A DNA stretch of 64,000 nt from Streptomyces sp. Q6. GTDB taxonomy: Bacteria > Actinomycetota > Actinomycetes > Streptomycetales > Streptomycetaceae. Both the position numbers and the translations under genes were made by a program. The stretch spans positions 4,898,001 to 4,962,000 of the forward strand of contig NZ_CP146022.1 in the NCBI RefSeq assembly GCF_036967205.1, written 5' to 3'. This document shows positions 7,634 to 36,644 of the stretch, one piece after another (position 1 is the first letter of the stretch; each line of letters begins with the position of its first letter). The notes under the pieces are model-generated. The model did not search any database. It was not told the origin of the DNA and worked only from the letters and a program-made list of their open reading frames with translations.

Positions 7634-8395
7634 ATGGGCGCGGGCCACGCACATCGTCTCTACCGGGCCGGGCGGTCCCCGGTCCACGCCCTGCCGCCGC
7701 ACACCAAGCTCGCGGCGGTCTTCGCCTTCGTCGTGGTCGTGGTCTCCACGCCCCGCGAGGCGATGTGGGCGTTCGCGCTGTACGCGGTGCTGCTGGGCGC
7801 GGTCGCGTACGTGGCGAAGGTGCCCGGCGGCTATCTGCTGAAGCGGCTCCTCATCGAGATCCCGTTCGTCGCGTTCGCGGTGCTCATGCCGTTCGTCGCG
7901 GAGGGCGACAAGGTGCAGGTGCTCGGCCTGTCGCTGAGCGAGAGCGGCCTGTGGGGCGCGTGGAACGTACTGGCGAAGGGCACGCTGGGTGTCGCGGCCT
8001 CGGTCCTGCTCGCCTCGACGACGGAACTGCGGGAACTCCTCCTCGGCCTGCAACGCCTGAAGCTGCCGCCGCTCCTCGTCCAGATCGCCTCGTTCATGAT
8101 CCGGTACGGGGATGTGATCACGGACGAGATGCGGCGGATGAAGATCGCGCGGGAGTCGCGGGGCTTCGAGGCGAAGGGCGTACGGCACTGGGGCGTCCTC
8201 GCCAAGTCGGCGGGGGCCCTGTTCATCCGTTCCTACGAGCGCGGCGAGCGCGTGCACCTCGCCATGGTCAGCCGCGGTTACGCGGGCTCGATGCCGGTGA
8301 TCGACGAGGTGACGGCCTCGCGCACGCAGTGGTCGTACGCGCTGGCGCTGCCGGCCGCGGCTTTCGTGGTGTGCCTGATGGGATGGACCCTGTGA
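7634..8395 (+). CDS. ECF transporter transmembrane (T) component
   Basis: 253-aa CbiQ/NikQ-type EcfT protein that couples the ATPase to the substrate-binding component. It has several membrane helices and the two characteristic coupling-helix motifs, ARESRGF (about residue 172) and AMVSRGY (about 209), which contact the ATPase. The ATG is one base after the TGA of the M-N gene, and the stop overlaps the start of the ATPase gene, so the three genes are translationally coupled. Confidence 0.92.
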   Translation: MGAGHAHRLYRAGRSPVHALPPHTKLAAVFAFVVVVVSTPREAMWAFALYAVLLGAVAYVAKVPGGYLLKRLLIEIPFVAFAVLMPFVAEGDKVQVLGLSLSESGLWGAWNVLAKGTLGVAASVLLASTTELRELLLGLQRLKLPPLLVQIASFMIRYGDVITDEMRRMKIARESRGFEAKGVRHWGVLAKSAGALFIRSYERGERVHLAMVSRGYAGSMPVIDEVTASRTQWSYALALPAAAFVVCLMGWTL

Positions 8396-35020: not shown

Positions 35021-35725
35021 ATGGGAGTGCGGCTCATGGTGGTCGACGACCACCGACTGCTCGCCGAGGCGCTGGCTTCGGCCCTGAAGCTGCGCGGGCA
35101 CCGGGTGCTCGCCGCCGCCGCGCCCGCCGCCGGCGCGGCCGAACTGGTCATCTCCCGTGCCCCGGAGGTGTGCCTCCTGGGCACGGCGACACCGGCGGAA
35201 CCGGGCACGTTCGACCCGGTGGTGCGGATCAAGCGGGAGCGTCCCCAGGTGGCCGTGGTGGTCCTCGGCCCGGTCCCGTCGCCGCGCGGCATCGCGGCGG
35301 CCTTCGCCGCGGGCGCCTCCGGTTACGTACGCCACGACGAGCGCATAGAGGGTGTCGAGCGGGCGCTGATGAAGGCGCGGGCGGGCGAGGCGGCGGTGGC
35401 CCCGGCCCTGCTCCAGGGCGCGTTCAGCGAGCTGCTCAACCCGGCGGCCCAACCCGACGACGAGGGCCAGCGGTTGCTCCAGATGCTGACCCCGCGCGAG
35501 GTCGAGGTCCTGGTCAGGGTCGCCGACGGCGAGGACACCCGGCTGATCGCGGCCGGCATGGGCATCGCCCCGTCCACGGCCCGTACGCACGTCCAGCGCG
35601 TCCTGATGAAGCTGGGCGTCGGCTCCCGGCTGGAGGCGGCGGCCCTGGCCGCGCGCACCGGACTTCTCGACCGCGCGGGCCCGGTGCAGCAGGCCGCGCC
35701 CTCCTCGACCGAACCGGAATCCTGA
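35021..35725 (+). CDS. LuxR-type regulator with degenerate receiver domain
   Basis: 234-aa NarL/LuxR-type protein. The receiver (about residues 1-120) keeps the acidic pair in LMVVDDHRLLAEAL. However, the phospho-acceptor position at the end of beta-3, usually LLDxxMP, reads CLLGTATPA, so the Asp is replaced by Gly and phosphorylation by a kinase is unlikely. The DNA-binding domain (about 150-215) has the usual LTPREVEVLVRVADGED and GIAPSTARTHVQRVLMKLGV. The ATG at 35021 was chosen; a GTG two codons later is possible. No kinase gene is adjacent, so it is an orphan, atypical regulator. Confidence 0.85.
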   Translation: MGVRLMVVDDHRLLAEALASALKLRGHRVLAAAAPAAGAAELVISRAPEVCLLGTATPAEPGTFDPVVRIKRERPQVAVVVLGPVPSPRGIAAAFAAGASGYVRHDERIEGVERALMKARAGEAAVAPALLQGAFSELLNPAAQPDDEGQRLLQMLTPREVEVLVRVADGEDTRLIAAGMGIAPSTARTHVQRVLMKLGVGSRLEAAALAARTGLLDRAGPVQQAAPSSTEPES

Positions 35726-35733
35726 GCTATAGT
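35705..35733 (+). promoter_or_regulatory. Candidate promoter of the tRNA-like transcript
   Basis: TCGACC (35705-35710), 17-nt spacer, TATAGT (35728-35733), overlapping the stop of the preceding regulator gene. Predicted transcription start is near 35740, about 35 nt before the tRNA-like sequence. The leader contains a small hairpin (CACCGC 35749-35754 with GCGGTG 35760-35765). Confidence 0.55.
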
Positions 35734-35774
35734 CGATCTTGCGCTCGTCACCGCAACTCGCGGTGCACGGCAGT

Positions 35775-35844
35775 GCGTTGGTGGTCCAAGGAAAGACGCC
35801 CCGCTTCCTGCGGGGAAATGCAGGTGCAAGGCCTGCCCGGCGCT
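35775..35844 (+). tRNA. Glycine-type tRNA, anticodon UCC, with non-canonical T-loop
   Basis: The sequence folds as a tRNA by hand. The acceptor stem GCGTTGG/CCGGCGC has 7 bp (two G-U). U8 is present. The D-arm GTC/GAC has a loop carrying A14, G18-G19 and A21. The anticodon stem is CCCCG/CGGGG with 7-nt loop CTTCCTG (U33, anticodon UCC). The variable loop is AAAT, and the T-stem GCAGG/CCTGC has a 7-nt loop. Discriminator U73 is followed by CC. All bacterial GlyRS identity elements I know (G1-C72, C2-G71, G3-C70, C35, C36, U73) are present, and A15-U48 can pair. Oddities: G at position 55 (TGC instead of TTC), U37, a mismatch in the D-stem, a short variable loop and CCG rather than CCA. It is followed by its own terminator. 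Confidence 0.72.
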
Positions 35845-35852
35845 CCGAGAGA

Positions 35853-35882
35853 AGTCCCGCTCCCCGTACGGGGAGCGGGACT
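35853..35882 (+). terminator. Intrinsic terminator of the tRNA-like transcript
   Basis: A perfect 30-bp palindrome: AGTCCCGCTCCCCGT followed by its exact reverse complement. It begins 8 bases after the tRNA-like sequence and is followed by TTCG. Confidence 0.85.
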
Positions 35883-35945
35883 TTCGCGTGTGCGGGGTCG
35901 GGCGGTGCCCGCTCGGCGCGTTTCCGCCCGCGATACGGTGCTGCG

Positions 35946-36644
35946 ATGTCTCGTACCGCCGAAACCGGATCAGTGTCGTCGCCCGTCACCGCGGACGACG
36001 TCGACCTCGCCGTGCGGCTCGCCGTGGAGGTCCTCCGGGGCGCTCCCGCGCAGGGGTGGGGCGCGCGGGCCGGTTCGCTGGAGTGGGACTGCTGGGAGAC
36101 CGCCGAGCACCTCGCCAACGACCTGTTCTACTACGCCGTCCAACTGGGGCCGCAGAGCCCGCCGCTGGACACCCACGTGCCGTTCGCGTTGCAGCGGAAG
36201 AGGCCGGACGCACCCATGGTCTTCGTCTTCGCGGAGCGTGCCGCGGGACCGGCCGGACTGGTGCAGGTCCTTGAGGCGTGCGGCGCGCTGCTGGTCTCCA
36301 TGGTGCGGACGACACCGCCCCACGTCCGCGCCCACCACGCCGCCGGAGTGGCGGACCCCGAAGGCTTCGCCGCGCTGGCGCTGCAAGAGACGCTGGTCCA
36401 CACGCACGATCTGGCGGAAGGTCTCGGGCTGGACTGGGACCCGCCCGCGGCGCTCTGCTCGCGGTTGCTCGGCCGGCTGTTCCCGCAGGCTCCGGGCGGC
36501 GCGGACCCCTGGCGCACCCTGCTGTGGGCCACCGGCCGCGCCGAACTGCCGGGGCGCCCCCGGCTGACCGCGTGGCGCTCGGACAGCACACCCCGGTCGG
36601 CCGCCGGGAAACCGGAAGGGCCGGAGCCCACCGCTCGGCGGTGA
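35946..36644 (+). CDS. DinB/MDMPI-like (mycothiol-dependent isomerase N-terminal) protein
   Basis: 232-aa protein of the DinB_2/maleylpyruvate-isomerase N-terminal type, a four-helix-bundle fold often linked to mycothiol-dependent enzymes in actinobacteria. Metal-site His positions of the fold are suggested by ETAEHLANDLFYY and LQETLVHTHDLAEGLGL. The end is low-complexity. The ATG is at 35946. The reaction is unknown. Confidence 0.7.
   Translation: MSRTAETGSVSSPVTADDVDLAVRLAVEVLRGAPAQGWGARAGSLEWDCWETAEHLANDLFYYAVQLGPQSPPLDTHVPFALQRKRPDAPMVFVFAERAAGPAGLVQVLEACGALLVSMVRTTPPHVRAHHAAGVADPEGFAALALQETLVHTHDLAEGLGLDWDPPAALCSRLLGRLFPQAPGGADPWRTLLWATGRAELPGRPRLTAWRSDSTPRSAAGKPEGPEPTARR

Follow-up and report, generated by a model that had tools for sequence, protein, structure and literature searches.

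An accessory glycine tRNA of Streptomyces with a G55 T-loop, a candidate glycine donor outside translation

To our knowledge, there is one well-known case, that of Staphylococcus, in which a dedicated transfer RNA (tRNA) keeps part of the aminoacyl-tRNA pool for enzymes other than the ribosome. In the non-proteinogenic tRNA-Gly of S. aureus, the G49-U65 and G51-C63 pairs are changed to A49-U65 and A51-U63, which weakens the binding of EF-Tu (PMC4052509; this and the other papers cited are taken in extract). Bacterial glycine identity consists of U73, G1-C72, C2-G71, C35, and C36 (PMC9976931). In Bacillus cereus, deletion of the tRNA-like gene tRNAOther alters the cell wall (PMC3399842). Here we describe a unit in a window of 64,000 nucleotides (nt) from Streptomyces sp. 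Q6 (contig NZ_CP146022.1, positions 4,898,001 to 4,962,000; "the window" is this whole stretch), in which a short tRNA-Gly with G at position 55 of its T-loop, hereafter the accessory RNA, is located. On balance, it is probably a small tRNA that has a promoter and a terminator to itself, is charged by glycyl-tRNA synthetase (GlyRS), stays out of translation, and passes glycine to an acceptor other than the ribosome. We take the rules of glycine identity and the reasoning on EF-Tu from PMC9976931 and PMC4052509, and infer that they can be transferred to the accessory RNA. The unit in the window is composed as follows.

35705-35733, plus strand: promoter-like site TCGACC-17-TATAGT, with 9 of 12 consensus bases
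35734-35774, plus strand: leader, presumably transcribed, that forms a hairpin at about 35743-35771, from the minimum free energy fold
35775-35846, plus strand: body of the non-canonical tRNA-Gly (UCC), from ARAGORN, the fold, and the family alignment
35799-35815, plus strand: anticodon arm, from ARAGORN and the fold, its loop compared over 45 distinct sequences
35820-35836, plus strand: T arm GCAGG-UGCAAGG-CCUGC, from the sequence, the fold, and the family comparison
35852-35883, plus strand: perfect palindrome of 32 base pairs (bp), terminator-like, from the sequence

ARAGORN, run independently, reads a tRNA-Gly (tcc) of 72 nt at 35775-35846, and the minimum free energy structure of the body is a cloverleaf with a 3-bp D-stem (ensemble frequency 0.88); both agree with the UCC-anticodon tRNA that an earlier note on this DNA had folded by hand. 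The body alone is modestly stable relative to shuffled sequences (z -2.04; 9 of 200 shuffles equally good). The glycine identity bases listed in that note are present in the sequence and the fold, as are the departures it had named, G55, U37, and the 3-bp D-stem. The window copy has G1-C72, C2-G71, G3-C70, U33, C35, C36, U73, G53-C61, and A58. Its anticodon loop CUUCCUG occupies 35804-35810, with the anticodon UCC at 35806-35808 and U37 at 35809; G55 is at 35826, and the 51-63 pair is A-U. The discriminator U73 is at 35844, and CCA is not encoded (CCG stands in its place). The D-loop CAAGGAAA retains GG, the numbering being ambiguous in so short a loop. A match to the general tRNA model was not obtained: RF00005 of Rfam is silent on the window copy at the gathering score and at E up to 10, and this copy is not among the 68 RF00005 matches in its own genome. 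A riboswitch or another known RNA family was rejected, as no Rfam match lies above gathering here; at E up to 10 only chance-level matches were seen, the best being rsmX at 20.8 bits versus a cut-off of 56.

The -10 element (35728-35733) begins 47 nt ahead of the tRNA and is followed by C-GATC. The promoter-like site, claimed from the letters earlier, is the sole one in 35600-36000 (shuffled mean 0.0, sd 0.1), and the leader hairpin claimed with it is seen in the minimum free energy fold. The palindrome proposed as a terminator is indeed perfect; its length had been given as 30 bp and is corrected to 32 bp. A simple terminator scan did not report it, probably because its tail is without T. As a whole, the unit (35738-35890) is far more stable than its shuffles (z -5.13; 0 of 200 as stable).

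The same promoter-tRNA-terminator unit recurs across the genus, and the observation in the window is therefore more than chance. Among 86 units with distinct upstream sequence, the mean identity over 600 sampled pairs was 0.89 for the body, versus 0.57 for the 60 nt upstream, 0.58 for the 50 nt downstream, and 0.49 for shuffles. The motif TANNNT, followed by ATC within 0-5 nt, lies at -43 to -61 in 66 of the 86 units (shuffled mean 1.9, maximum 7), and a terminator-like hairpin, by a loose rule of our own, follows in 77 (mean of five shuffles 2.8). The last 48 nt of the leader fold at a mean of -16.0 kcal/mol versus -12.2 (one shuffle each). The promoter/terminator architecture persists while the flanking sequence diverges. 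The conserved ATC soon after the -10 element (window 35728-35738, TATAGT-C-GATC) may mark the start site or the site of a regulator.

An alignment of accessory copies only (73 rows, 33 distinct) had 99.5% of its 655 cells paired. Two-sided changes were seen in 5 of the 20 pairs (shuffled mean 2.6; equalled in 6 of 500 shuffles) and in 27 cells (shuffled mean 4.2; equalled in 0 of 500), and the covariation score was 0.252, versus 0.128 for shuffled and at most 0.061 for slid alignments. With nine rows of a second, universal type described below included, an alignment of 32 rows (30 distinct) was fully paired (600 of 600 cells) and had two-sided changes in 11 of 20 pairs, with a score of 0.507 versus 0.165 shuffled. 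Both alignments were fitted to the model, a bias that favours the structure. The conserved G55 and the compensatory stem changes, which the earlier note had looked to across the genus as support for a functional RNA, are both found; a decaying tRNA, its other option, is refuted for the family by pairing and conservation, single decayed copies (L048, L049) notwithstanding. These two copies were included in the accessory-only alignment. One of them has broken acceptor pairs and no terminator visible by eye, and the other has an unrelated 5' half, with the 3' half and terminator retained. Taken together, the comparisons indicate that the accessory tRNA family is under selection as a cloverleaf RNA.

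The bases kept and lost were compared with a wider model (R2), which gave 129 matches over 100 chosen sources: 86 accessory (45 distinct sequences), 18 universal (16 distinct), and 25 canonical (12 distinct). G1-C72, C2-G71, G3-C70, U73, C74, and U54-G55-C56 are present in all 45 distinct accessory sequences, and CC at 35-36 in 43, eight of these within an anticodon loop of 6 nt; the two without it come from a single genome of another genus (L120). The loops are CUUCCUG (28), CUUCCCG (5), CAGCC-G (4), CU-CCAA (3), and CUUUCAG (2), with CUCCCCG, CUUCCGG, and CAACC-G occurring once each; the two 6-nt subtypes, C-UCC-AA (L031-L038) and CA-GCC-G (L039-L042), keep CC. The 51-63 pair is A-U in 42 of 45, C-G in two, U-A in one, and never G-C, whereas in the 12 distinct canonical tRNA-Gly(GCC) sequences of the same loci it is G-C in nine, C-G in three, and never A-U. 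By eye, the canonical UCC tRNA of the own genome and the canonical CCC tRNAs inspected have G49-U65 and G51-C63.

The G55 T-loop makes pseudouridine 55 impossible, and the pyrimidine 37 or the 6-nt anticodon loop of most copies is poor for decoding. Among the traits of an elongator, U55, the pseudouridine that would pair with G18, is lacking (G55 in 45 of 45), as are purine 37 (U37 in the window copy) and, in 8 of 45, the 7-nt loop; the cloverleaf with the glycine identity G1-C72, C2-G71, C35, C36, and U73 is present in 43 of 45. The own genome also has canonical tRNA-Gly for GCC and for UCC, so that decoding has no need of the accessory RNA. By this sequence evidence, the accessory family is a real, conserved, non-decoding family of glycine tRNAs, and its glycylation and escape from EF-Tu are strongly suggested.

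Of 150 Streptomyces genomes, 80 matched the 160-base unit in a DNA search, three of them (G019, G122, G138) at the palindrome end only. A covariance model of the body (R1; cut-off E <= 0.001) matched 165 of 295 Streptomyces genomes, with 1 to 9 matches each; 162 are left when G167, G205, and G231 (best E about 1e-7), matched only via the second G55 tRNA-Gly, are set aside. In a few other genomes the R1 matches take in that second tRNA or decayed copies, and the R1 counts are lower bounds because scoring was limited to 16 candidates per genome. R1, the one model applied to the other genera of the family, led to accessory-type copies there in G299, G353, G363, G369, and G384. Two copies of another genus (L120) are divergent G55 tRNAs with a Glu-like UUC anticodon, yet with the glycine acceptor and U73. 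Close copies occur at 136 places in 70 plasmid records, 68 named Streptomyces and two Streptantibioticus. There was no match in 50,697 phage records and none in an exact-pattern scan of viral contigs; a phage origin was rejected on these two results. The copies are evidently accessory and spread between genomes, partly by plasmids.

Among 246 genomes of the class, 22 had a match to an exact pattern for UCC/G55/U73 tRNAs: 20 of the 22 Streptomyces genomes and 2 of the remaining 224, the letters of the latter two being by eye not tRNA-like. R2 matched 203 of the 246 at E <= 1e-7, and all eight non-Streptomyces loci inspected are canonical tRNA-Gly. At E <= 1e-9, R2 had no match in the 14 genomes of f3, a sister family of the same order, and three matches in the single f2 genome.

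In the window, the tRNA lies after the stop codon of a response-regulator/LuxR-type gene (35021-35725). G103 carries a copy at the same place, and nine relatives have no copy in the stretch between the LuxR gene and a small convergent gene; a fixed integration site was therefore rejected.

The second G55 tRNA-Gly has its own copy outside the window (G000:C1:4115877-4115950; L160:478-551), a 74-nt tRNA-Gly(UCC) adjoining tRNA-Gly(GCC), which ARAGORN missed and Rfam matched at 53.5 bits. Like the accessory RNA, this universal type has the G55 T-loop, A51-U63, and the glycine acceptor identity; unlike it, it has 74 nt, a canonical-looking D-stem, A37, and a bulged U in the T-stem, and usually occurs in one copy. 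In the loci to which ARAGORN was applied, tRNA-Gly(GCC) is its neighbour. All 25 Streptomyces loci inspected, mostly the best matches of genomes picked for lacking the accessory RNA, hold a 74-nt tRNA-Gly that combines GUGC(A/G)A with a bulged T-stem, and eight loci of genus g7 (perhaps Kitasatospora) and one further Streptomyces locus agree with this type (L111-L119). By the exact pattern it is present in 17 of the 22 Streptomyces genomes of the class sample. R2 matches 294 of 295 genomes, a count that includes the accessory and possibly canonical tRNA; G157, unmatched in that search, gave weak matches on re-search, one of which, when inspected, was a tRNA-Arg. The universal type is apparently near-universal in the genus, and it seems to be a better candidate for a wall tRNA than the accessory RNA. 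In S. coelicolor, DasR is reported to bind ahead of glyS and also at a tRNA-Gly gene that precedes SCO3679 (PMC4398421). One accessory copy in g7 (L122:7937-8009), whose T-arm is CCTGG-TGCAAAT-CCAGG and whose D-arm differs from those of all other copies, is intermediate between the accessory and universal types.

The copies of the accessory RNA are scattered in genomes and on plasmids, which points to a separate supply of glycine for a task outside protein synthesis. In the proposed mechanism, the RNA would be transcribed, trimmed, provided with CCA, and glycylated. EF-Tu would bind the product weakly, helped by the weak 51-63 pair, and the free Gly-tRNA might then donate glycine to a non-ribosomal transferase, for which the FemABX/GNAT fold is the likeliest and which would act on a cell-wall bridge or a Streptomyces natural product. 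Extra copies would raise the supply of the donor. DhpK and Orf11 are Gly-tRNA-dependent FemABX-like enzymes of Streptomyces natural-product pathways (PMC12945691), and enzymes of this class are an equally good kind of acceptor as the wall enzymes.

The narrower view that the accessory RNA serves FemX, in particular circumstances, as the donor of the bridge glycine in Streptomyces peptidoglycan seems unlikely, although more can be said for it than for the other alternatives. FemX of S. coelicolor is listed among the wall-bridge enzymes that use aminoacyl-tRNA (PMC4052509), the dedicated tRNA-Gly of S. aureus offers a parallel, and FemAB wall enzymes occur in all 150 Streptomyces genomes searched. 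However, the accessory RNA is present in only 77 of those 150 (162 of 295 by R1), the FemAB matched stretches per genome are alike in the 77 carriers and the 73 non-carriers (3.69 vs 3.53, p = 0.89), and FemAB, which outside the genus occurs in 55 of 80 selected genomes, is present in 14 of 14 genomes of f3, where R2 had no match. This means that FemAB as such needs no accessory RNA, and FemAB dosage was rejected as a correlate. The near-universal G55 tRNA-Gly is also the more natural FemX donor. The earlier note had suggested a non-translational glycyl-tRNA for wall synthesis; the specialised, non-translational part is upheld by G55 and covariation, and the wall part is not supported by these FemAB comparisons. 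A decoy, in the form of a glycylated or anticodon-bearing mimic that soaks up an enzyme attacking tRNA-Gly, such as a GNAT toxin acetylating Gly-tRNA or a nuclease, is less likely still. It would suit the patchy, multi-copy, plasmid-borne distribution and the retention of U73 and G71, the recognition pair of TacT (PMC9976931), Gly-tRNA being a common target of GNAT toxins (PMC9177977). An HNH/DUF1524 nuclease gene lies within 1.2 kilobases (kb) of 4 of the 128 units with enough flank (L053, L056, L227, L230; 264-755 nt from the RNA; two in genome G091 and two on plasmids) and was not found in 512 kb of sequence from loci that lack the RNA. But the other 124 units are without this gene at that distance, two of the four come from one genome, and as a general partner the nuclease was rejected as too rare. 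For each of two acetyltransferase genes near plasmid copies, the remaining 48 contexts contain no relative, and nothing in a decoy would call for the loss of pseudouridine 55 and of the EF-Tu pair, a loss that the universal G55 tRNA shares.

A regulatory tRNA-shaped RNA that acts by base pairing or protein binding, for which tRNAOther is the precedent (PMC3399842), appears slightly less probable again: the short stand-alone unit with its conserved promoter/terminator architecture would fit, whereas the invariant acceptor identity and U73, and the CC kept through loop shortening, are unexpected for a pairing RNA, and the leader diverges. That the accessory RNA is a normal tRNA-Gly used in decoding, or the pseudogene of such a tRNA, is very improbable. 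The window copy has UCC in a 7-nt loop with U33, and decayed copies exist; this is contradicted by the covariation, by the conservation of the body relative to its flanks, by the two 6-nt-loop subtypes with G55 in 45 of 45, and by the canonical UCC tRNA in the same genome.

Several observations weigh against the glycine donor proposed here. The 49-65 pair is G-C in 43 of the 45 accessory sequences, unlike the A-U of S. aureus, and G18-G19 is apparently kept, not replaced by UU or CU as in S. aureus. The two L120 copies (1392-1463, 7933-8004) have lost C35. The decayed copies (L048:5816-5884, L049:7932-8033) lie outside the 100 sources behind the 45 sequences. The FemAB numbers given above do not differ between carriers and non-carriers, and the neighbourhood offers no widely shared gene that would point to an acceptor. 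Across 42 contexts, the most widespread protein cluster covered six loci at scattered distances, clusters at constant distance had two to three loci each, at apparently orthologous sites, and nine annotated plasmid contexts have no gene family common to all; the script used was not sensitive, as it missed the nuclease gene seen by direct search. Full-text literature searches, several of them aimed at S. aureus or at enzymes, gave no Streptomyces report of the accessory RNA among the matches listed, and the extract of PMC11109978 mentions no tRNA-like RNA.

If the accessory RNA is a glycine donor outside translation, it would be a second, independent, horizontally spread case of a dedicated tRNA, in the main antibiotic-producing genus. 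Its natural variation, in anticodon loop length (7 nt or 6 nt) and in carriage between closely related species, would allow the rules for escape from EF-Tu and delivery of glycine to be tested, and it would point to unknown glycine-consuming pathways. A broader picture, of mobile, multi-copy glycine tRNAs wholly out of translation, whose anticodon loops may shorten provided that the synthetase still recognises them and which form a dedicated donor pool that arose independently of the staphylococcal one, is offered tentatively and is somewhat less probable than its opposite.

The S. aureus tRNAs may share the GUGCAA T-loop; a scan with a pattern for it gave no staphylococcal match and one unrelated match in Paracidovorax. 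Like the tRNAOther pseudo-tRNA of B. cereus (PMC3399842), the accessory RNA is an extra tRNA-like gene that seems to be non-translational. Like the FemXAB donors of S. aureus (PMC4052509, PMC9976931), it keeps the glycine identity, has the 51-63 pair weakened to A-U, and occurs alongside canonical tRNA-Gly. Unlike those donors, which belong to another phylum, it has G-C at 49-65, G18-G19 apparently kept, and 6-nt loops in two subtypes, and it is a dispersed, accessory, multi-copy, and plasmid-borne element.
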